Source of the DNA: Brevibacterium sp. S111 | Lineage (GTDB): Bacteria; Actinomycetota; Actinomycetes; Actinomycetales; Brevibacteriaceae | Assembly: GCF_004745075.1 (NCBI RefSeq) | Contig: NZ_RHFH01000007.1 | Coordinates: 62,001 to 126,000 of the forward strand | Direction of reading: 5' to 3' | DNA length: 64,000 nt | Shown here: one piece after another, positions 52,511 to 64,000 of the stretch | How the letters are laid out: each line of letters begins with the position of its first letter | How positions within the stretch are numbered: the stretch's first letter is position 1 | Notes under the pieces: generated by a model | Seen by the model: the letters and a program-made list of their open reading frames with translations, nothing else | Databases searched by the model: none | Told to the model about the DNA's origin: nothing | Program-made: the position numbers and the translations under genes

Positions 52511-52911
52511 ATCAATCCTCCCCAATGAGTCTTGCCGCTGCCGGTGCGCGCCTGTCGTCCTCGACGCCGCCCCGGCAGTGATGTGCGTCATGATCTTAAC
52601 GTCTTCGGTACTGATTGCGAAACCGTCGACGATGAATATGCGAATAATAAGTGCCCGATTGAGATGGAATCAGTGACTTTCAGCAAAGATCACAACGATA
52701 TCGGTAGTCTCACGGGGTTGTTCTGCACCGTTCCGGCCGCCTGCCGCAGACGGCGTCACAATCCCAGGGCGCCCGACACTCGCCCGGTCGTCACGGCCAC
52801 CGCCTCGGCCTCGAACCGCCCAGTTATCGAACGAACCTTCAGGCCGAGATGGAAACAGAGTAGATTGCAGTCATAGGACTTAACGGACCCACAGTGAGGT
52901 GTGAGAGAAGT
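52511..52911. other. 401-bp gap between divergent APC permease and MBL hydrolase
   Basis: No gene and no convincing palindrome are visible. An AT-rich stretch (about 52640-52660, ATGAATATGCGAATAATAAG) probably contains promoter elements for one or both genes. Confidence 0.4.
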
Positions 52912-54039
52912 ATGGCGATCGAAACGCTCAGTTCCCGACAGTCGGCAGCGTGGAAGGACCGGGTTCTGCCCCCGGTCGAAAAGGTCGCCGAAGGAGTCTG
53001 GGCCGTCCCCGTCCCGATCCCGGACAACCCGCTCGTCTACACCTACTGCTATGCGATCGCCGACGGCTCCGGGGTTGTCCTCATCGACCCGGGCTGGGAC
53101 GGCAAGGACCAGTACCTGGCGCTCACCTCGGCGCTGGCGGACCTCGGCTTCAAGGTCAGCGACATCCACGGCATCGCAATCACGCACTACCACCGCGACC
53201 ACATCGGTCTCGTGCCCGCGCTGCTGGCGAAGAATCCCAGCGCCTGGGTCGCCATGCACGGTGAGGACCTGCGCTCGATCAAACGCTTCTACACCAACGC
53301 CGTCGACCTCGGTACCGGGATCAACCCGAACCTCAACATCGCCCGCGCCTACGGGGTCCCCGAGGACCGCTGGGCCGAGGTCGAAAGCCTCCAGGTCGGC
53401 TCGAGCGGCACGAAGGCCGCACACAGCTCGACAGGCTCGACAGGCTCGACCCATGCGGATCGCACAGGCGAATCGATGAGTTTCTACCAGCAGGCCCTGC
53501 GGCAGCTGCCGGACACGGTCCACGTCCTCGACGACGGCACCGAACTGCCCCTGTCCGACGGCACCGTCCGGGCCATGTGGACACCCGGGCACACCTACGG
53601 GCACTCGGTATTCGTCCGTGAGGACGACGATCTGCTGTTCTCCGGCGACCATGTGCTGCCGACGATCACCCCGAACATCGGCCTCGACAGCGGGGCGATC
53701 ACGCACAGCCTCGGCGATTATCTGCGCTCGCTGGAGAAGATCGGCCAACTCGACGAGGAGGTGGCGGTGCTGCCGGCCCACGGGTTCCGCTTCAGCGGAC
53801 TCCACGACCGCAAGGCAGAGCTCGTCGACCACCACCACGCACGCCTCGACGAGATCCGCGCCCGGATGGAGGCCACCGATGACCACAGCGTCTTCTCGAT
53901 CGCACAGGGCCTGCACTGGTCGCGCGGATTCGACAGTCTGCACAACTTCAACCTCTTCGCCGCCCTTGCCGAAACCGCCGCACACATGCATTATCTCGGT
54001 ATCGACCTCGGCATCGGCTCGCTCGTCGGCCAGGACTGA
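52912..54039 (+). CDS. MBL-fold metallo-hydrolase
   Basis: A 375-aa metallo-beta-lactamase-fold hydrolase. The metal motif is ITHYHRDHIG (HxHxDH), with the further ligands in TPGHTYGHSVF and LFSGDHVLPTITPNI, and the last His in VLPAHGFRF. A low-complexity Ser/Thr/Gly insert (HSSTGSTGSTHADRTGES, residues 172-190) interrupts the middle. The C-terminal helices after residue 310 are typical of the LACTB2/RNase-Z-unrelated group. The ATG at 52912 is preceded by AGAGAAG. It is followed by a peptidase of the C45 group at 72 bp. Substrate unknown. Confidence 0.87.
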   Translation: MAIETLSSRQSAAWKDRVLPPVEKVAEGVWAVPVPIPDNPLVYTYCYAIADGSGVVLIDPGWDGKDQYLALTSALADLGFKVSDIHGIAITHYHRDHIGLVPALLAKNPSAWVAMHGEDLRSIKRFYTNAVDLGTGINPNLNIARAYGVPEDRWAEVESLQVGSSGTKAAHSSTGSTGSTHADRTGESMSFYQQALRQLPDTVHVLDDGTELPLSDGTVRAMWTPGHTYGHSVFVREDDDLLFSGDHVLPTITPNIGLDSGAITHSLGDYLRSLEKIGQLDEEVAVLPAHGFRFSGLHDRKAELVDHHHARLDEIRARMEATDDHSVFSIAQGLHWSRGFDSLHNFNLFAALAETAAHMHYLGIDLGIGSLVGQD

Positions 54040-54110
54040 CCGGGTCCGACAGGAACCGACATGAGCGCACATCCCGTGCCCGGGTCGAAGGAACCGAAGG
54101 AGGATCCGTC

Positions 54111-55337
54111 ATGAGCACCCAGTTCGTCCCCGCCGCCGACGTGCGGCCCGAGACCTTCACCGTCCGCGCGGCCGATCATATCGACCGCGGTCGCCGACGC
54201 GGACAGACGCTGCGCACCGGGATCGCCTCCACGCTCGCCGCGTATCGGCGGTACTTCGCTCACCTCTCCATCGCCGAGGCGGACGTGCGCTCCGCGGCGA
54301 TGTCGAGTTTCGCTCGCCTGCAGGAATGGTCACCGACCGACGCCGAGGAGGTCGCCGCCGCGGCCGAGGGCGCCGGCGTCGAGGTCGCCGAGCTCATGGA
54401 GATCATCGCCCGCACCGAGATCATGACCCTGGCCGCGGCTGCTCCGACCGAATGTTCGACCGTGAGCTTCACCAGCCCGGGCGCCTCGGTGGCGGCGCAG
54501 AACTGGGACTGGGCCGCGGACTTCTCCACGCTGTGGCATATCAACGATGTCGGTTCCGTGCCTGGTCAGCACCGTCATGTGGGCATTGCGGAGTTCGGGA
54601 TGCTCGGCAAGATCGGCCTCAACGAGGCCGGCGTCGGGGTCCTGCTCAACATCCTCAAACACACCGGCGACGGGCCCGGGGGAGTGCCCATCCATATGAT
54701 CCTCAACCGGGTGCTCAGCCGGGCGAGCACCCTCGCCGAGGCGCTGGAGATCATCCACTCGAGCCCGACCTCATCGTCATCGATCATCACCGTCATCACC
54801 GCCGAGGCGGCCGTCCAGGTCGAGATCGCCGGCGAGACCAAACGCGAACGTCGAGCAGATGGTCGCGGATTCCTCATCCACACGAACCATTTCCTCCACC
54901 CCGATCTGCTCGACGGGGCGCTCGAGCTGCGCCCGGACTCGACCTCACAGGAGCGCGGCCGGCACCTCGAGCAGGTCGTTGCACGATTCGAAGCCGACCG
55001 CGCCGCGACTGGCGAGGCCGAGCCCGCCGTCGAGCCGCCCGAGCCCGCGGTAGGCGAGTCTGAGCCCGCTGCCGGTGACGCCGAGAACGCTGAAGCCGAA
55101 AACGCTGAAAGCGGGACGGCGGCCGATGCGCCTGTGAGCGTCGCCGACCTCACGAGACTGCTGACGACGGGTCCCGGCGAAGCGCCGGTGTGCTGCACCC
55201 CGGCCCCCGACGCCGCCTACGGCAATCGCTCGGCGACCCTGGTGAGCGTGCGCATCGACCCGGCGCGCAGACAGATCGACCTCGCCCCCGGATCGCCGGC
55301 CGATGGGATGCGCGGAAATCGTCGCTTTCAGCTCTGA
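54111..55337 (+). CDS. C45-family (penicillin acyltransferase-like) autoproteolytic peptidase
   Basis: A 408-aa protein resembling acyl-CoA:6-aminopenicillanic acid acyltransferase. The probable self-cleavage site is before Cys115 in APTECSTVSF, followed by the oxyanion strand AAQNWDWAADF and NEAGVGVLLNILKHTG. Unlike most family members it carries a low-complexity Glu/Pro/Ala insert of about 50 residues (EPAVEPPEPAVGESEPAAGDAENAEAENAES) near the C-terminal third. An AAGGAGGAT site precedes the ATG. The pairing with the MBL hydrolase suggests a shared amide-hydrolysis pathway, but the substrate is unknown. Confidence 0.83.
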   Translation: MSTQFVPAADVRPETFTVRAADHIDRGRRRGQTLRTGIASTLAAYRRYFAHLSIAEADVRSAAMSSFARLQEWSPTDAEEVAAAAEGAGVEVAELMEIIARTEIMTLAAAAPTECSTVSFTSPGASVAAQNWDWAADFSTLWHINDVGSVPGQHRHVGIAEFGMLGKIGLNEAGVGVLLNILKHTGDGPGGVPIHMILNRVLSRASTLAEALEIIHSSPTSSSSIITVITAEAAVQVEIAGETKRERRADGRGFLIHTNHFLHPDLLDGALELRPDSTSQERGRHLEQVVARFEADRAATGEAEPAVEPPEPAVGESEPAAGDAENAEAENAESGTAADAPVSVADLTRLLTTGPGEAPVCCTPAPDAAYGNRSATLVSVRIDPARRQIDLAPGSPADGMRGNRRFQL

Positions 55338-55358: not shown

Positions 55359-56369
55359 TCAGTCCTCGCCGTCGCCTGCGCCGTCGGTCTCGGACTTCGC
55401 CTCGGCGGCTTCGTTCTCGCGCATCTCGATGACCGCCTCGAGCGCGGAGGCGATTGCGTCCGCATCGTCCAGGGCCGCCTGGATGAGGCGCCAGGGCACG
55501 AGGTCGAGGTTCTGGTCGCCGATGACGAAGCGGACATAGGGCTGGCGGCTGCGCGGATCGTCGGCTTCGAGGTCGGTGCCGTAGCGCCACTGGCCGAAGC
55601 ATGTCCGGCGGATGGTCTCGCCGATGAAGCGCATGGCACCGGCGGTGAACGGGGCCTCCTCCTCGTCCATCATGTCCTCGGGGGAGTCGTAGCGGACCGC
55701 GATCTGCTTGCCCAGCCGGGCCAGGCTCTCACGATCGAAGCCCCACGACGCGGGATCGGCCTGCTCCTGCGTCCACGCGGCGATGCCCGGTTCGACGGTG
55801 CCGATGAAGCGGGAGAGGAACTCGACCTCCTCCTCGCTCGAGTTCTCGGCCGTGAGCATGCCCAGGGACAGTCCCGTGCACTTGCGGCGCGGCAGTCCGT
55901 CCCCTCCGAGGAGCTCTCGGGCCTTGTTCAGCACCGCGGTGAACACCTCGGCGCTGCGCTGATCGACGGCCGTGAGCACGATGCCCACGAGCGGGATCGG
56001 CTCACCGGCGGCCGGGCCCTCCTCGGTGTCGGGGCGGATGAACGGCATCCCGCTGCCGGTGGTCTCGTCGTGGTCCCAGACCCCGCCGATCGCCCGCAGA
56101 TAAGTCTCGCCGAGGTAGCGGATGAGGCCCTCGAAGAACCGCCGGTTCTCCGCTTCGAGGATCGCCTCGGTGCTGGGGAACTTCGAGAGCACGAAGAGTT
56201 CGAGCATCGGCAACGACTTCGGGCCGAAGTCCTTCGGGAACTTCACCGTCTCCCCGTCCTCCTTCTCGAAGGTCCCGGGCAGGTCGGCGAGGACGAACGC
56301 GCCGAGGCGGACGTCCATATTGTTGATGAAGGCAGTAAATTCGCGCTGAAGTTCATTCACGGGAACCAC
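55359..56369 (-). CDS. Unknown 336-aa protein
   Basis: I recognise no family. The protein is soluble, acidic and probably all-alpha/beta, with conserved-looking phrases such as DVRLGAFVLADLPGTFEKEDGE, RFFEGLIRYLGETYLRAIGGVWD and FGQWRYGTDLEADDPRSRQPYVRFVIGD. The last 30 residues are low-complexity (EMRENEAAEAKSETDGAGDGED). The GTG start at 56369 has a GAGG element 7 bp upstream. It converges on the C45 peptidase and is followed upstream by the TetR gene of the MMPL locus, with no obvious operon partner. Confidence 0.6.
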   Translation of the reverse strand: MVPVNELQREFTAFINNMDVRLGAFVLADLPGTFEKEDGETVKFPKDFGPKSLPMLELFVLSKFPSTEAILEAENRRFFEGLIRYLGETYLRAIGGVWDHDETTGSGMPFIRPDTEEGPAAGEPIPLVGIVLTAVDQRSAEVFTAVLNKARELLGGDGLPRRKCTGLSLGMLTAENSSEEEVEFLSRFIGTVEPGIAAWTQEQADPASWGFDRESLARLGKQIAVRYDSPEDMMDEEEAPFTAGAMRFIGETIRRTCFGQWRYGTDLEADDPRSRQPYVRFVIGDQNLDLVPWRLIQAALDDADAIASALEAVIEMRENEAAEAKSETDGAGDGED

Positions 56370-56529: not shown

Positions 56530-57192
56530 TCAGTCGGTTTCGCAGGGCCTGAAGTCGATGAGGTGGATGAGGACCTCGACGATGAGGCTCGGGTCGATGT
56601 CGACGTGTTCGTCCATCTCCTTGCCGGCCGCGGCCGAGAGTGCGATCCGGTTGAACACGGAGATGATGACGGTGAGGAATTCCCCGATCGGCTGCTTCGT
56701 CGTGGCCCCGGCGACCTCGAGGGCCGTGGTCACGAGTGCGGCGAGCCGGTCGAGCTGAGTGGCGTTGAGCTCGAGGTAGCGGGCGTAGAGGTGGGGGACC
56801 CGCAGGCAGTAGAGCTCGATCTCCTGCTCGGTGATGGTCTCGGCCACCGTCTGCTTCTTCTCGTTGAAGACGTCGTCGATGAACTGTGTCATCAGCGCCT
56901 TGATCTCGGGCACCTCGGTGGTGGCAGTCAGCTGTTCGGTCCACCGTCGGATCGTCGCATCGAGACGGTCGAGGTTCTCCGAGGTGCGCATCTCGATGAT
57001 GGCGAGCACGAGGTCGTCACGGCTGGAGAAGTTCGAGTAGAAGGCGCCACGGGTCAGTCCGCCCGCCTCGCAGATCTCCTCGATCGAGGCGCCGTCGATG
57101 CCGCGCACGGCGAACACCGAGGTCCCGGCCTGGACGAGGGTCGACCGGGTCTGGCGTCTGCGGGGGCTGAGTTCGTCTGTTGTCATCGTCAT
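56530..57192 (-). CDS. TetR/AcrR repressor of the MMPL-YhgE locus
   Basis: A 220-aa regulator. Residues 10-60 carry the helix-turn-helix (TRSTLVQAGTSVFAVRGIDGASIEEICEAGGLTRGAFYSNFSSRDDLVLAI), with the aromatic YSNF typical of the family. The start at 57192 or the ATG two codons later is plausible; upstream frame sequence is Arg-rich and unlike a protein. It is divergent from the MMPL gene, and overlapping palindromes lie in the gap, so it most likely represses that operon. Confidence 0.87.
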   Translation of the reverse strand: MTMTTDELSPRRRQTRSTLVQAGTSVFAVRGIDGASIEEICEAGGLTRGAFYSNFSSRDDLVLAIIEMRTSENLDRLDATIRRWTEQLTATTEVPEIKALMTQFIDDVFNEKKQTVAETITEQEIELYCLRVPHLYARYLELNATQLDRLAALVTTALEVAGATTKQPIGEFLTVIISVFNRIALSAAAGKEMDEHVDIDPSLIVEVLIHLIDFRPCETD

Positions 57193-57342: not shown

Positions 57343-57364
57343 TGTATCCAATACACTTTTGTAT
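57343..57364. promoter_or_regulatory. Overlapping palindromic operator of the MMPL locus
   Basis: TGTAT-CCA-ATACA (57343-57355) and ATACA-CTTT-TGTAT (57351-57364) share the ATACA half-site. The pair lies 11 bp before the MMPL start and on the far side of the gap from the TetR gene. The AT-rich composition contrasts with the flanks. Confidence 0.7.
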
Positions 57365-57374
57365 CGAGGTTTCC

Positions 57375-60302
57375 GTGTCAACTTTCCTCTACGCCCTGGG
57401 CCGCCGTGCGTACCAGACCCCGTGGCGATTCATCGCCGCATGGCTGCTCATCTTCGTCCTCGTCGGAGCCGGGGTCGCCGCCTTCGCCAAGGACTTCGAC
57501 GACGACTTCACCCTGCCGGGTTCCGAAGCGCAGACCGCGCTCGACTCGATGCAGTCGACCTTCCCCGAGGCGGCCGGAGTCTCCGCCTCGGTCATCGTCG
57601 TCGCGGACGAAGGCGATTCCGTCACGGATGCGAAGTACAAGGACGCGATCGGCGACGAGGTCAAGCGGCTCGAAGATCTCCCGCACGTCGACACGGTGAC
57701 CTCCCCGTTCTCCGACCTCGTCGAGGGCGCCATCAGCAAGGACGACTCGGCGGCGATGATCTCCGTCCAATACGACGGCACCCAGCAGGAAGTCGGCGAA
57801 GACGCCGGGGACAACCTCATCGACGCCCTCGAACCGCTGCGCGACGACCTGCCCGGGGCACAGGTCGACGGCGGCGGCGAACTCTTCCAGATCACCGGCG
57901 TCGAGATCTCCTGGGTCGAAGGCGTCGGCGTGGTCATCGCCTTCATCGTCCTCCTGCTCACCCTCGGCTCCTTCCGCGCCGCCGGAATGCCGCTGGTCAC
58001 CGCGCTCATCGGCGTCGGCATCTCCGTGCTGCTCATCGTCGGGGCCACGGCATTCGCGACGATCAACTCCTCGTCGATCATGCTCGCGCTCATGCTCGGC
58101 CTGGCCGTGGGCATCGACTATGCCCTATTCATCGTCTCCCGCGCCCGTGACCTGCTGGCCGAGGGACACGCACCCCTCGAGGCGACCGGCCGTGCCGTCG
58201 CCACCGCCGGTTCCGCCGTCGTCTTCGCCGGCATGACCGTGATGATCGCGCTCTTCGGACTGTCCCTGGCCGGCATCCCCTTCCTCACCATCATGGGCGT
58301 CGGTGCCTCCGGGTCCGTGGCCGTGGCCGTGCTCATCTCCCTGACGATGATCCCGGCCTTCCTCGGTCTCGCGAAGTCCCGAATCACGCCGAAGCCGACG
58401 AAGCGCTACCGGAAGGCCTTCGCCGCCGCCTCGGCGCGGGCAGACGAACGCAGCGCCGCCTCGGCGGGGAACTCCTCCACCGAGGCGGGGCCGAGCGATT
58501 CCGCCACCCGCGAGGAGATCGCCGACGAAGCCCGCGCCGAGGCGGGGGAACCGTACCCGAAGACGATCATGAACCGGTTCTTCGAACGGTGGCTGGCCGT
58601 CGTGACGAAGATTCCGCTGCTGACGATCGTCGTCATCGTCGGCGGTCTCGCGCTCTTCGCGATCCCCGCCACCCAGCTCCAGCTGTCACTGCCCACCGCG
58701 GGCGACCAGGAGCAGGGAACGCCCGCCCGGGCGACGTACGACCTCATCGACGAACACTTCGGGCCCGGCTACAACGGGCCGTTGGTGATGACCAGCGAGA
58801 TCGTGACCAGCGATGACCCGCTCGACGATGTCGAGGACATCGAGAAGCGCATCGAGAAGGTCGACGGGGTCGAAGAGGTCATCATGGCCACCCCGAACCG
58901 GGATGCCACGACCGCGCTGTTCCAGATCATCCCGACCACCGCCTCCGACGATCCGGCCACGCTCGAAACCGTCGACCGGCTGCGGGACCTGAGCACGGAG
59001 ATCGAGGACGACTACGACTTCGACACCGCCGTGACCGGCGCCACCGCGATCCAGATCGACGTCTCCGATCAGCTCGGAAAGGCGCTGCTGCCCTTCGGCA
59101 TCTTCGTCGTCGGCCTGTCCATCATCCTGCTCATGATGGTCTTCCGGTCGATCGCAGTGCCGATCAAGGCCACAGGCGGGTTCCTCCTGTCCGTCTTCGC
59201 CTCCTTCGGAACGGTCGTCCTCGTCTTTCACGACGGACTCTTCGCCGCACCGCTGGGCATCGACTCGACAGGACCGGTCATCAGCTTCCTGCCGATCATC
59301 GTCATGGGCATCCTCTTCGGCCTGGCCATGGACTACGAGGTCTTCCTCGTGTCCGGGATGCGCGAGGCCTACGTCCACGGCGCTTCGGCCAAGGACGCCA
59401 TCAAAGCCGGCTTCACCTCCTCGGCGCGGGTCGTCGCTGCGGCGGCGGTCATCATGTTCTCCGTCTTCGCGGCCTTCGTGCCCGCCGGTGAGCCGATCAT
59501 CAAATCCATCGCCCTGGCCCTGGCCTCGGGAATCTTCGTCGACGCGTTCCTCGTGCGCATGTCGCTGGTGCCCGCGATCATGCAGCTCCTCGGCGACAAA
59601 GCCTGGTGGCTGCCGAAGTGGCTCGATCGGATCCTGCCGCGCCTCGACGTCGAAGGTGAGGGACTGGCCCACGAGGTGGCGCTGCGCGATTGGCCGGAGC
59701 CGAACTCGGACTACCGGGTCTACGGTCGCGGAATCGGCGTGTATTCGGGGGAGCGCGGCTTCGCCCGCGTCGACATCTCGCTGAGGCCCGGACAGATCCT
59801 CGTCGCCAGCGGCGCCGCGCGCAGGGCCCTGCTGCTGGCCGTCTCCGGCCGCGTCGGGCTCACGGCCGGAGAGATGAAGATCGGCGAGAACGTCCTGCCC
59901 GAACACTCCGGACGGGTCCGCCGCCAGGTGCCGTACTTCGACCTCACTTCAGGCGGAGCCGACCAGGCGATCAGCCCGCGCGACATCTCTCGGATGGCCG
60001 CCTCGGCGCCGGACCTGCTCATCATCGACGGTGCCGAGCACCTGAGCGAAGGAGCACGGGACGCGGCCGGACCCGGACGCGACCTGCGCGACCTCCTGCC
60101 GCAGCTCGTCGCAGACGGCACCACCGTCGTCCTCGGCCTGCCCGACGGCGATGTGACCGGGATCTTCAGCCCCGACACGAACTACTTTCACCTCGACCTC
60201 GACGAAGCTCGGCCCGATGGACGAGGCGAAACCGACAGCGAATCAGGCGGCGAACACACCCACGCCGCTGACAGCACCAACATGGAAGGCGTGCAGTCGT
60301 GA
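57375..60302 (+). CDS. MMPL-family transporter fused to a degenerate ABC-ATPase-like domain
   Basis: A 975-aa protein. Residues 1-770 form an MMPL transporter with twelve membrane helices and two extracytoplasmic porter domains; the repeat marker LGLAVGIDYALFIVSR and its second-half counterpart FGLAMDYEVFLVSGM carry the proton-relay positions. Residues 775-940 are not membrane: they read like an ABC nucleotide-binding domain with RPGQILVASGAARRALLLAVSGRVGLTAGEMKIGENVLP (Walker A without the Lys) and APDLLIIDGAEHLSEGARD (Walker B-like), then TVVLGLPDGDVTGIF. The domain therefore looks inactive. The GTG start has GAGG upstream. It overlaps the YhgE-type gene by 4 bp. Confidence 0.85.
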   Translation: MSTFLYALGRRAYQTPWRFIAAWLLIFVLVGAGVAAFAKDFDDDFTLPGSEAQTALDSMQSTFPEAAGVSASVIVVADEGDSVTDAKYKDAIGDEVKRLEDLPHVDTVTSPFSDLVEGAISKDDSAAMISVQYDGTQQEVGEDAGDNLIDALEPLRDDLPGAQVDGGGELFQITGVEISWVEGVGVVIAFIVLLLTLGSFRAAGMPLVTALIGVGISVLLIVGATAFATINSSSIMLALMLGLAVGIDYALFIVSRARDLLAEGHAPLEATGRAVATAGSAVVFAGMTVMIALFGLSLAGIPFLTIMGVGASGSVAVAVLISLTMIPAFLGLAKSRITPKPTKRYRKAFAAASARADERSAASAGNSSTEAGPSDSATREEIADEARAEAGEPYPKTIMNRFFERWLAVVTKIPLLTIVVIVGGLALFAIPATQLQLSLPTAGDQEQGTPARATYDLIDEHFGPGYNGPLVMTSEIVTSDDPLDDVEDIEKRIEKVDGVEEVIMATPNRDATTALFQIIPTTASDDPATLETVDRLRDLSTEIEDDYDFDTAVTGATAIQIDVSDQLGKALLPFGIFVVGLSIILLMMVFRSIAVPIKATGGFLLSVFASFGTVVLVFHDGLFAAPLGIDSTGPVISFLPIIVMGILFGLAMDYEVFLVSGMREAYVHGASAKDAIKAGFTSSARVVAAAAVIMFSVFAAFVPAGEPIIKSIALALASGIFVDAFLVRMSLVPAIMQLLGDKAWWLPKWLDRILPRLDVEGEGLAHEVALRDWPEPNSDYRVYGRGIGVYSGERGFARVDISLRPGQILVASGAARRALLLAVSGRVGLTAGEMKIGENVLPEHSGRVRRQVPYFDLTSGGADQAISPRDISRMAASAPDLLIIDGAEHLSEGARDAAGPGRDLRDLLPQLVADGTTVVLGLPDGDVTGIFSPDTNYFHLDLDEARPDGRGETDSESGGEHTHAADSTNMEGVQS

Positions 60303-62689
60303 GACTCGAACGTGCGAACTCGAAGCGACCGGTGAACTGGCTCTCCCTCCTCGGCCTGGTCCTCATCCCCATCATCGTGGCGGCCGGATTCATCCTCGCC
60401 ACCTGGAAGAGCGGCGACCGCCTCGACACCATCGAGGCGGCCGTCGTCAACAACGACGACGGCGCGAAGGTCGACGGCAAGACCGTGCCGATCGGGCGAC
60501 AGCTCACCAGCGGCCTCGTGGGCGAGGATGAGAACAACATCCACTGGGTCATCACCGACGAAGACGAGGCTGAGAAGGGGCTGTCCGACGGCAAGTACGC
60601 CGCGCAGCTGACGATCCCCGAAGGCTTCTCCCGCGCAGTGACCTCGGTCGACGACGCGAAATCGGCGACCCAGACGCAGATCGACGTCGATGTCTCGGGC
60701 ACAGTACCGGCTTTGGACACGCAGATCTCCCGTTCCGTCGCCGAGGTGGCCCGCACGACCTTCAATACGAAGATGACCGAGACCTACCTCGACAACATCT
60801 ACGTCGGCTTCAACGAGATGGGCGAGCAGATGAAGGACCTCGGCGACGCCGCCGGGGAACTCGACAAGGGCGCCGAAGGACTCAAGGAAGGCACGGACAA
60901 GTCCGCGAGCGGCGCGGGTGAACTGGCTGCGGGGATGGAACAGCTGGGCAAGTCCGGCGGCGAACTCAAGACCGGTGCCTCGGACCTCTCTGACGGTGCC
61001 GGAGAGCTGTCGAAGGGCGCTTCCCAGTTGTCCGGAGGCCTGAACGAACTCGACAAGAAGACAGCGAAACTTCCCGACAGCACCCAGAAGCTCGCCGACG
61101 GTTCCGGCGAACTCTCCGACGGAGTCGACGAATACACGAAGTCGATCGACGAGATCATCAAGGGCTTCGCCGGATCCGGTGACTCCGGCGAAGGCGGACT
61201 CGACGACCTCGTTGACGGGGGAAAGAAACTCGACAAGGGCGCGCAGGGCGTGTCCAAGGGGGCCTCCGGCCTCTCCGATGGTCTGCACCAGTACCGTGAC
61301 GGTCTCAAGAAGGGCGCTGACCAGGCCGATCAGCTGGCCGGTGCGAAGCCGGATCTCGACGGGCTCGTGAAGGAGGACATCATGACCGCGGCCGAGGCGA
61401 AGCAGGCGCGGGCCGAGATGTGCCCGACCGGCACCCCCGATCAGGTCTGCAAGGGCATCGAACAGGCCTACGCGCAGGGCCTGCTCAACGGCACGTCGGG
61501 TGGACTCAACACCGCCGTCGACGGGCTCGAGCAGGAGAAGGACGGCGCCTCTCTCCTCGGCGGGTCCGATGAACTCGCTGACGGCGCATCGGAGCTCTCC
61601 GACGGTGTGAGCAAGTTCGTCAAGGGACTCGAGGACGGCCTCGGGAAGCTGACGAAGGGCATGGCGGACATCTCGAAGAACGCTCCGAAGCTGCTCAAGG
61701 CCTCTCAGGGTCTGCGGGACGGTGCCGCCGGTGTCGCCGACGGCAACCAGCAGCTCGCCGACGGGATGCCGGCCCTGTCAAAGGGCGTCGGGCAGCTCGC
61801 GGACGGTTCTTCAGAGCTCTCCGACGGAGCCGGGCAGCTCTCCGCGGGGCTCGACGAGTACAGCACCGGTGTCGGCAAGTACACCGACGGTGTCTCCGAG
61901 GCCGCGACAGGCACCTCCGATCTGGCGGCCGGACTCGACGAACTCGACAAGGGCACCGGCAAATACGCGAAGGGTGTCAGCAAGTTCGCGGACGGAGTCA
62001 AGGACGGAGCGGACGATGTGCCCTCCTACACGGCTCCGGAACGCGACCAGCTGTCGAAGGTCGCCTCGGCGAACATCAAGGCCCCGAGCCCGGATGGTCT
62101 GACGAACGTCCTGGCAGGATCGACGATCGCGCTGCTGATCATGCTCGCCCTGTGGATCGGCGGGCTCGTCACGTACACGGTGCTCAAACCGATTCCGGCC
62201 TGGGCCCTGCTGTCGACGAAGCCCTCGCTCGCCGTGTGGGCCCGAGGTCTGCTGCCCGGCGTGGTCGTCGGTGTGCTGCAGGCGCTCGTGCTCTCGATCC
62301 TCGCGGTGACCGTGATGGACATCGATGCGGTCCAAGGCTTCGACATCGCGGTGCTCACCTTCGCCTCGGCGATCGTGTTCATGATCCTCAACTTCGCCCT
62401 CGTGGCGTGGTTCGGCGGAGTGGGGCGGTTCCTGTCGGTGATCGCCGTGGTCCTGGCCGTGGCCGGGCGGACGATCGGCGCGGTGCCGCAGTTCTTCGAC
62501 TTTGTGGCACCGATCCTGCCGCTGACCCCGTCGATGAACGGCTTCGCCGCGATCGCCGCCGGCACCACCGGACAGGCCGCAGCCTACGGCGGACTGCTGG
62601 CCTGGGCGGTCATCGGCATCGTGATGTCGCTGCTCGCGATCGTCCGGGCCCGGACCACGAAGCCCGAAGCCGCCCTGGAAATGGCGTAG
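60299..62689 (+). CDS. YhgE/Pip-type membrane protein
   Basis: A 796-aa protein. A single N-terminal helix (WLSLLGLVLIPIIVAAGFILATW) leads to a large extracytoplasmic region of about 560 residues, dominated by repeats of the form L-x-D/K-G-x-x-x-L-S (for example GAGELSKGASQLSGGLNELDKKTAKL), which should form long helical bundles. Five membrane helices follow from residue 600 (VLAGSTIALLIMLALWIGGLVTY). This is the YhgE/Pip arrangement, related to phage-infection proteins and to EsaA of type VII secretion. The GTG start overlaps the MMPL stop by 4 bp, so the two are co-translated. Confidence 0.9.
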   Translation: MRLERANSKRPVNWLSLLGLVLIPIIVAAGFILATWKSGDRLDTIEAAVVNNDDGAKVDGKTVPIGRQLTSGLVGEDENNIHWVITDEDEAEKGLSDGKYAAQLTIPEGFSRAVTSVDDAKSATQTQIDVDVSGTVPALDTQISRSVAEVARTTFNTKMTETYLDNIYVGFNEMGEQMKDLGDAAGELDKGAEGLKEGTDKSASGAGELAAGMEQLGKSGGELKTGASDLSDGAGELSKGASQLSGGLNELDKKTAKLPDSTQKLADGSGELSDGVDEYTKSIDEIIKGFAGSGDSGEGGLDDLVDGGKKLDKGAQGVSKGASGLSDGLHQYRDGLKKGADQADQLAGAKPDLDGLVKEDIMTAAEAKQARAEMCPTGTPDQVCKGIEQAYAQGLLNGTSGGLNTAVDGLEQEKDGASLLGGSDELADGASELSDGVSKFVKGLEDGLGKLTKGMADISKNAPKLLKASQGLRDGAAGVADGNQQLADGMPALSKGVGQLADGSSELSDGAGQLSAGLDEYSTGVGKYTDGVSEAATGTSDLAAGLDELDKGTGKYAKGVSKFADGVKDGADDVPSYTAPERDQLSKVASANIKAPSPDGLTNVLAGSTIALLIMLALWIGGLVTYTVLKPIPAWALLSTKPSLAVWARGLLPGVVVGVLQALVLSILAVTVMDIDAVQGFDIAVLTFASAIVFMILNFALVAWFGGVGRFLSVIAVVLAVAGRTIGAVPQFFDFVAPILPLTPSMNGFAAIAAGTTGQAAAYGGLLAWAVIGIVMSLLAIVRARTTKPEAALEMA

Positions 62690-62855: not shown

Positions 62856-64000
62856 TCAGAGGAGGTCGAGGATCGCCTCTGCAACGGCGTGTGAGTCGTT
62901 GAGTGTGGCCGCATCGGTGCCGGGGTTCGCGGCGATCGCCAGACCCCACTGCTTCGACGACAGCTGAATGGACAATGCGAATCGGCGCGGGTTGACGTTT
63001 CCTTCGACATCGATCGTGCGATAGGGGCGAGGGGTGAGCGCGAGTCCGTTGAGGAACTTCTCCCGACCGTCGTCCAAGGTCAAGCGTGCTGCGGTGAGCT
63101 GACCGCGCTCGAGCATCCCGTACAGCAGGACATCGGCTGCGCGCGAGACGGAATTCGTCGGGGATGCGGCATCGATGACGACACTGCCCGTGATCTCACC
63201 GGCGGCCTGCGCCGAGGTGACCGTGAAGAGCTCCGGTCGCGGCCCCGGCGTTTTCGCCCCGGACGCCACATCGGCGGCCGTCCCGGATACCGCAGCGGCG
63301 TTCGCCTCACGCGCTTCGAGTGCGTCCGGGTTCTCCTCAATGCGCATATCGGGGCCGATGAAGGACACGATTCCCGCCTCGGCGAGGGCAAGGAGTTCGG
63401 CGATCCGCTGTGGGGGAGGCCCATCGCAGATGCCGGAGACGAAGCCCTCGAACCAGCCGAGGATCTCCATGTCGATGCTCACCCGATCGATGTGACCGGC
63501 GACGATGAGGTCCTTGAGCAGCAGGCGGGACTGCCACAGCACAGTGAACAATGCTTTCTCCGGGCTGCCGGTCGGACCGGCCAGGGAGCTGTGCAGGTCG
63601 GTGCGCAGGAAGTCGAGCATCCACTCGTGCAGGGAACCGGGCTCGCCGGGTTCGCGACTGGTGAACAGCTCGCCTTCGAGCGGGTTGAGCAGAGTGTGCA
63701 GAGACATGCGATCGGCAGGATCGGGCACGAGTGCCTCTTCGATCTCCGACCAGGCGAAGGCTTCGCGAGTGACGCGGCCCTGGCGGGCGGTCTCCTCGGT
63801 GGTCTCGGCGGCACCGGCATCGCCCGCCGCCTGCGGGTGGGTCTCCTGCCAGGTGCGTCGGGTCAGGTGGCGTGACACGGCCTCGCCGATGGCCTCACGC
63901 AGCTGACCGGGGTCATCGGCGAACGCTTCGGGACGGACCTGGGAGAGCGTGTGATAGTACGCCAAACGCAGATCGGCGAGGATGAGCGGCCACAGCTGGT
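62856..64000 (-). CDS. Probable FAD/NAD(P)-binding protein, C-terminal part (runs off window end)
   Basis: About 381 codons are present and the frame continues beyond the window. The C-terminus reads LALTPRPYRTIDVEGNVNPRRFALSIQLSSKQWGLAIAANPGTDAATLNDSHAVAEAILDLL, which resembles the end of large actinobacterial FAD/NAD(P)-binding proteins (PF13454-like), where a similar PYR..D..G..HPRRFA..I...W..A.....N....D..A.A segment occurs. The Rossmann FAD motif would be upstream, outside the window. A low-complexity insert (AGDAGAAETTEETARQG) is visible. The assignment rests on this tail only. Confidence 0.5.
   Translation of the reverse strand, partial: QLWPLILADLRLAYYHTLSQVRPEAFADDPGQLREAIGEAVSRHLTRRTWQETHPQAAGDAGAAETTEETARQGRVTREAFAWSEIEEALVPDPADRMSLHTLLNPLEGELFTSREPGEPGSLHEWMLDFLRTDLHSSLAGPTGSPEKALFTVLWQSRLLLKDLIVAGHIDRVSIDMEILGWFEGFVSGICDGPPPQRIAELLALAEAGIVSFIGPDMRIEENPDALEAREANAAAVSGTAADVASGAKTPGPRPELFTVTSAQAAGEITGSVVIDAASPTNSVSRAADVLLYGMLERGQLTAARLTLDDGREKFLNGLALTPRPYRTIDVEGNVNPRRFALSIQLSSKQWGLAIAANPGTDAATLNDSHAVAEAILDLL

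Follow-up and report, generated by a model that had tools for sequence, protein, structure and literature searches.

An MMPL transporter of Brevibacterium sp. S111 carries a degenerate ABC nucleotide-binding domain beside a YhgE/Pip protein: a possible docking module in a proton-powered export unit

Introduction

Proteins of the MMPL family are proton-driven, and RND/MMPL pumps and ATP-binding cassette (ABC) exporters are textbook-separate classes according to their source of energy. Why, then, does an MMPL-family transporter encoded by Brevibacterium sp. S111 end in a domain that resembles the ATPase of an ABC exporter, and what could such a domain do in a proton-driven pump? The gene in question lies in a stretch of 64,000 nucleotides (nt) (assembly GCF_004745075.1, contig NZ_RHFH01000007.1, positions 62,001 to 126,000 of the forward strand), which is called the window here and in which position 1 is the first letter. 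A sequence-only reading of the window had described the C-terminal extension as a dead ABC-ATPase-like domain without the Walker A lysine, the overlapping gene as one for a YhgE/Pip protein related to the EsaA part of type VII secretion, and the pair as an export or lipid transfer machine under a TetR repressor, in which a pseudo-ATPase works as a regulatory or docking module. These proposals were followed up by structure prediction, family comparison and a survey of related loci.

Results

An AlphaFold model of the MMPL C-terminal extension, obtained with an alignment of 24 rows (the window's sequence and 23 related ones), had a mean predicted local distance difference test score (pLDDT) of 82.0 and a predicted template modelling score (pTM) of 0.78. 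A Foldseek search with this model returned 503 matches at E <= 0.001 with FtsE on top (E 6.5e-9), and in VIA the model aligned over 152 residues to ABC nucleotide-binding domains (NBDs) with Z 15.2 and a root-mean-square deviation (rmsd) of 2.9. The 50 VIA matches listed are all ABC-type proteins as far as their titles show, and in nearly all rows listed the alignment starts only after the first model helix (residues 5-29). According to this model, MMPL residues from about 781 to 935 are an ABC NBD by fold, and the ABC-like nature that had been proposed for the extension is thereby borne out. The extension gave no significant match in Pfam or NCBIfam, nor did phmmer, run with the isolated extension, turn up a convincing relative of solved structure (best E 0.032); the probable reason is that the P-loop and the signature have been lost. 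Even the domain of L107, a fusion in which the helical region is kept, matched no Pfam family at 0.1. The nature of the domain was revealed by the family alignment, the fold and intermediates.

The domain is a member of a family of NBDs encoded beside YhgE/Pip genes. A second YhgE gene is present on the same contig (L147:5337-7514), ending about 490 nt upstream of window position 1, and just upstream of it a free-standing NBD of 291 amino acids (aa) with the P-loop GPAGSGKT is encoded (L147:4346-5221), which has Asn at the position of the catalytic Glu. At this second locus the fused domain is thus replaced by an NBD that has its own gene and an intact Walker A motif, a possibility that had been raised for some genomes. 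The distance between this second pair and MMPL-YhgE is about 60 kb. When L111, a relative of the free-standing NBD from another Brevibacterium genome, was compared with the genome of strain S111, that NBD was found first (1.5e-114) and the MMPL domain second (8.2e-7), followed by nine further matches at 2.1e-6 and weaker. A direct BLASTP comparison of the window domain with the free-standing NBD of the same contig gave E 1e-4 over 53 residues, with a three-residue gap that falls in the P-loop. Similarly, a profile of the MMPL domain recovers free-standing frames, mostly of 240-390 aa, in other families with E from 6.6e-20 to about 1e-13. Free-standing NBDs scored above the Pfam ABC_tran cut-off in the five cases tested (9.9e-8 or better; 5.8e-7 for L147), and so did two complete fused NBDs (L189, 3.1e-16; L186, 1.4e-9). 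In a tree of YhgE-linked NBDs (21 fused, 24 free) and 10 ordinary ABC NBDs, the YhgE-linked ones were set apart from the ordinary ones with a support of 100, and on trimmed domains (24 fused, 24 free and the same 10) this separation was again supported by 100/100. On these comparisons, the view that the C-terminal MMPL domain is an ABC NBD by descent, derived from the NBD family encoded beside YhgE/Pip genes, is well supported.

A single fusion event was considered and not retained. In the first tree all 21 fused NBDs formed one clade with a support of 97, possibly caused by linker columns, and on trimmed domains the support of the fused clade fell to 42/87, so that one event is not shown. Two candidates for fusions of more than 1000 aa were also dropped, as Pfam found no MMPL in either of them: L203 proved to be an unfused NBD of the GR[S] type next to YhgE, and L204 is an ordinary ABC protein. 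Adjacency to YhgE was the selection criterion for the 35 free-standing NBDs tallied below, from which two frame fragments of L215 were dropped. Without this criterion, 59 free frames matched the NBD profiles at 1e-10 or better; 38 adjoin YhgE and 16 of the other 21 lie in the flanks of Streptomyces MMPLs without YhgE, indicating that the NBD profiles also catch ABC proteins unrelated to YhgE.

The fused domains have largely lost the residues required of an ATPase. In the window the P-loop reads GAA---RRALLL when aligned to GPAGSGKTSFLL, is three residues short and does not conform to the Walker A pattern GxxxxGK[ST], which confirms the missing lysine; in Walker B the Asp is kept (DLLIIDG) and the catalytic Glu is replaced by Gly, and the region for the helical subdomain and the LSGGQ-type signature is missing from the sequence. 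The NBD alignment from which these features were read omits L204, L205 and L214. Among 112 non-redundant fusions, the helical/signature region is lost in 100, that of the window included, GK[ST] is kept in 7 and Arg occupies the position of the Walker A lysine in 68, while the Walker B Asp column holds another residue in 25 (Glu in 11 of these). The term pseudo-ATPase therefore understates the loss in most fusions, as the helical/signature region is gone along with the motifs, yet the domain is not dead everywhere, since five of the seven fusions with GK[ST] have the domain whole, that is, with a complete P-loop and helical region (L186, L189, L190, L194 and L195). GK[ST] is found without the helical region in the other two (L179 and L232), and the helical region without the P-loop in seven fusions (L107, L196, L197, L199, L200, L201 and L256). 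The existence of intermediates of both sorts suggests that sometimes the one loss and sometimes the other came first. Parsimony on a tree of MMPL cores counted three unordered changes of the Walker A state and three of the helical region, or four and three, respectively, when only losses were allowed; this is a quick tree with long branches flagged, loss-only counting is our own assumption, three cores (L074, L125 and L193) were omitted as too short and 14 further Brevibacterium rows were thinned out.

The 35 free-standing YhgE partners keep the helical region and, without exception, the Walker B Asp, and their Walker A motif is GK[ST] in 13 and GR[ST] in 22 cases. Judged from these motifs, the YhgE-linked NBD family looks like one of weak or non-canonical ATPases with the fused branch as the extreme, and the window domain would not be expected to bind nucleotide. 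Free-standing NBDs whose P-loop is intact except for an Arg at the Walker A lysine are L203, L206-L213, L215-L217, L258, L264-L266, L268, L270, L272, L275 and L276.

The extension was found in 57 of 57 Brevibacterium genomes searched and hence is no isolated oddity; the same finding led us to dismiss an insert that is mobile or very recent. Among named genomes, the closest relatives of the window are Brevibacterium species, the top segment reaching at most 89% identity. The 118 fused loci examined are a subset of the fused matches and were collected by MMPL sequence or domain profile and not by YhgE. In 117 of them a match to YhgE begins within -40 to +80 nt of the MMPL stop, and in the sole exception (L235) the contig ends 88 nt past that stop. 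In contrast, no YhgE was found near any of 40 related MMPLs without the domain, all of them from Streptomyces and ending before the domain (0/40; flanks up to about 6 kb downstream). Conservation of the domain across MMPL-YhgE operons, for which a survey had been suggested, was thus observed both within the genus and beyond it. Among 20 free-standing profile matches taken from an order-wide search (L258-L277), 19 stand directly before YhgE and the last runs off its contig end. The linkage of NBD and YhgE genes is well supported.

Order-wide, 113 of the 297 genomes drawn had a match at 1e-18; 90 of these (24 from Brevibacterium) possess a fusion, defined as a match from the first profile position in a frame of at least 880 aa and counted by hand from the rows, and 23 have free-standing matches only. 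An even draw of the phylum yielded matches at 1e-22 in 6 of 296 genomes, one of them through a free-standing frame. One fusion comes from a metagenome-assembled genome of Acidimicrobiaceae (L067). Two outcomes had been named beforehand as speaking against the sequence-only reading, a fold unrelated to ABC domains and an extension absent from homologues and disordered; neither occurred.

For the pump itself, Pfam MMPL scored 284.9 bits against a gathering score of 20.5, with two MMPL stretches, and both Asp-Tyr pairs, which make up the proton relay in MmpL3, are present in the window protein and in all 115 fused MMPL cores long enough to be tested. As the Asp-Tyr pairs are kept throughout and GK[ST] is rare, the proton machinery is retained and the ATP machinery mostly lost. 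Ratios of nonsynonymous to synonymous substitution rates (dN/dS), determined by a simple counting method for 11 chosen pairs and partly saturated, were 0.21-0.29 for the NBD and 0.14-0.16 for the pump core in the six close Brevibacterium pairs. By these ratios, the NBD is under purifying selection and less constrained than the pump. The linker between the two (59607-59714; MMPL residues 745-780) gave a dN/dS of 0-0.16 in the six close pairs, a stronger conservation than that of the NBD, and its first part is common to Streptomyces MMPLs without the NBD.

The YhgE protein matched Pfam ABC2_membrane_3 (2.2e-17; 63.7 bits against a cut-off of 31.6) and TIGR03061, the N-terminal YhgE/Pip model, above its cut-off (147 against 96.15 bits), and stayed below the cut-off of the C-terminal model TIGR03062 (73.9 against 102.2 bits; E 1.3e-20). 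Its helical insert of heptad repeats, with the pattern xxxLxxG, is probably extracytoplasmic by topology. With the membrane part of a YhgE model, although of low confidence, VIA aligned 220 residues to ABCG5/ABCG8 (Z 17.6, rmsd 4.1), and the 50 entries listed are ABCG-, Pdr/Cdr-, ABCA- or ABCH-type exporters as far as titles show. The ABC-2 likeness of YhgE is based on VIA and Pfam, and a passage in PMC3924187 describes the PIP family as kin to ABC-2 proteins. The EsaA model T7_esaA_Nterm scored 64.7 bits against a cut-off of 122, and a type VII secretion identity was set aside for this reason. What had been said of EsaA holds as a distant kinship, but the protein is closer to ABC-2/type V permeases.

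The coordinates of the locus are collected in Table 1. The MMPL gene overlaps the YhgE gene as described before, by 4 nt. The TetR gene is divergent from the MMPL-YhgE operon, and a palindrome upstream of the MMPL gene, TGTATCCAATACA, is the sole match to TGTATN3ATACA in the window. The same palindrome is located at -32 from the MMPL start in 14 of the 16 Brevibacterium loci examined; L052 has a variant palindrome at -55 and L038 has none. Of the 117 fused loci whose upstream flank is long enough, 90 gave a TetR-like frame there in a loose profile search, 80 of these frames being divergent. The operon may therefore be under TetR control. Near the operon, an AAT-like gene (acyl-coenzyme A:6-aminopenicillanic acid acyltransferase; Pfam AAT 9.8e-17) occupies 54111-55337, and three sizeable frames flanking or near the operon, 55359-56369 (-), 62856-63965 (-) and 52756-54072 (-), matched no Pfam family at 0.001.

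Table 1. Features of the MMPL-YhgE locus (window positions; ORF, open reading frame).
Feature	Position	Strand	Remarks
TetR-family regulator gene	56530..57192	-	probable ATG at 57192; TTG-started ORF reaches 57381; TetR_N 2.2e-10
Candidate TetR operator, palindrome TGTATCCAATACA	57343..57355	.	putative function
MMPL-family transporter with C-terminal pseudo-NBD	57375..60302	+	GTG start; 975 aa; Pfam MMPL 9.7e-85
Asp-Tyr pair, first membrane half of MMPL (residues 248-249)	58116..58121	+	
Asp-Tyr pair, second membrane half of MMPL (residues 653-654)	59331..59336	+	
Pseudo-NBD, MMPL residues about 781-935	59715..60179	+	from fold, alignments and trees
P-loop remnant GAARRALLL (residues 813-821)	59811..59837	+	3 residues shorter than intact relatives; Arg at Lys position
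Walker B-like strand DLLIIDGAEHL (residues 880-890)	60012..60044	+	Asp kept; Gly at catalytic Glu position
C-terminal MMPL tail	60180..60299	+	mostly disordered in model; pLDDT <50 at model residues 207-226
MMPL stop/YhgE start overlap GTGA	60299..60302	+	
YhgE/Pip protein	60299..62689	+	796 aa; ABC-2-like membrane part and long helical heptad-repeat insert

Discussion

We propose, with a probability of roughly 0.6, that the NBD of a YhgE-type (ABC-2/type V) exporter has been fused to an MMPL pump, has lost its ATP chemistry and now is an adaptor that docks on YhgE, both proteins forming one proton-powered export unit. In such a scheme, the NBD of the YhgE exporter would have been joined to the neighbouring MMPL pump, whose proton drive would have made ATP hydrolysis dispensable, and the ATP chemistry would have been lost repeatedly. 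The domain itself would have been retained for its contact with the YhgE permease, as a docking or coupling module and thus a built-in adaptor. MMPL and YhgE would then act as one envelope-export unit that draws its energy from the proton gradient, by way of the Asp-Tyr relay, instead of from ATP, with lipids or other hydrophobic compounds as the probable cargo; the binding to YhgE, the transfer of energy from the pump and the class of substrate are what we infer here. A fusion through the very domain that normally binds a permease, together with strict gene adjacency, is what a coupler predicts. According to an RNA-seq table for Saccharopolyspora hirsuta (PMC9782250), cholesterol raises the expression of a YhgE gene 3.82-fold and of an MMPL gene with a neighbouring locus tag 3.33-fold. 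This response fits a hydrophobic substrate or inducer, and the MMPL there may or may not bear the NBD. A bolder version, possible but in our eyes rather doubtful, is an energy-swapped hybrid exporter, in which the NBD captured by MMPL would serve as a non-hydrolysing transmission and proton flow would drive YhgE to pass hydrophobic cargo through the Gram-positive wall along a coiled-coil stalk.

Several observations weigh against the proposed adaptor. The YhgE model is weak overall (pLDDT 63.2, pTM 0.36), and plain Foldseek with it returned mainly coiled coils. The canonical site of coupling helices is between the RecA-like subdomain and the helical one; with the helical region lost in most fusions, any docking would have to be non-canonical. 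In the five more distant pairs the dN/dS was 0.28-0.60 for the NBD and 0.16-0.31 for the core, so that the NBD evolves faster than the pump. None of the 35 free-standing partners has the catalytic Glu (26 Asp, 8 Asn, 1 Gln); the ancestor may thus already have been a poor ATPase, which weakens the story of an engine swap. Finally, the five fusions with a complete P-loop and helical region leave room for ATP use to persist in some lineages.

That the NBD has been decaying since its fusion and merely keeps two independent, co-expressed transporters close to each other, or does nothing, would be in line with the variation of both the P-loop and the helical region across the MMPL tree (three unordered changes each, or four and three losses), with a dN/dS above that of the core in all 11 pairs and with a Walker B Asp column that is not Asp in 25 of 112 fusions, 11 of them having Glu. 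However, we consider a vestigial domain unlikely in view of the confident fold prediction (from the 24-row alignment), the presence of the domain in 57 of 57 genomes of the genus, a dN/dS below 1 in 11 of 11 pairs and a linkage that has survived deep divergence in 117 of 118 loci. Alternatively, the domain might be a sensor that still binds a nucleotide or another ligand, does not hydrolyse it and gates either the MMPL pump or YhgE. One can conceive of non-hydrolytic phosphate binding where Arg takes the Lys position, as in 68 of 112 fusions, and where the GR[ST] loop is otherwise intact, as in 22 of 35 free-standing NBDs. In the window domain and all Brevibacterium rows examined, however, the glycine loop is shorter by three residues and no phosphate clamp can be recognised, which makes a sensor quite improbable.

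Pairs of a degenerate and a canonical NBD are familiar from heterodimeric ABC exporters, and as the genome of strain S111 encodes a free-standing NBD with GPAGSGKT beside a second YhgE, the dead fused NBD could form a mixed dimer with an NBD encoded elsewhere in the genome, YhgE still being driven by ATP. A degenerate partner would have to supply the signature motif, which the window domain lacks, and the free-standing NBD has an adjacent YhgE of its own and is itself without the catalytic Glu; we therefore regard a mixed dimer as very improbable. If the docking adaptor is the right explanation, this locus would be a natural case of a transporter that changed its power supply, in that a pump of one class carries an engine decayed from the other class and has the permease of that engine as its genomic neighbour, and would permit a direct test of an NBD as a purely mechanical coupler. 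YhgE/Pip proteins, so far familiar chiefly as receptors of phages and as relatives of EsaA, would find their place among ABC-2-type permeases, served by an NBD family of their own that is mostly atypical. Among the matches listed from the open-access literature, no description of an MMPL-NBD fusion or of a YhgE-linked NBD family was found.

When compared with known systems, the transporter resembles MMPL/HAE2 RND transporters (MmpL3-like) in its two MMPL stretches and both Asp-Tyr pairs, matching the MmpL3 model in part (197.2 bits against a cut-off of 1400), and differs from them by the NBD-derived C-terminal domain and the adjacent YhgE, whereas related Streptomyces MMPLs end before that domain. 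The partner shares with the YhgE/Pip family (phage infection protein; TC 9.B.74) an N-terminal model above cut-off and the heptad repeats, but its C-terminal model stays below cut-off and its partner NBD is fused to an MMPL pump. In ABC exporters with degenerate sites, a catalytically dead NBD is retained and paired with an active NBD in the same exporter. An NBD without working catalytic residues is likewise kept in a transporter here, yet the transporter is a proton-driven pump, and the NBD has lost P-loop and signature region. The domain also resembles the free-standing actinobacterial YhgE-partner NBDs, which belong to the same NBD family and have the same YhgE neighbour, and which differ in being encoded by a separate gene, in keeping the helical region and in having an intact P-loop with Lys (13/35) or Arg (22/35). 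The superfamily of each part is thus a known one; what is new to us is how the parts are combined and how we read this combination.

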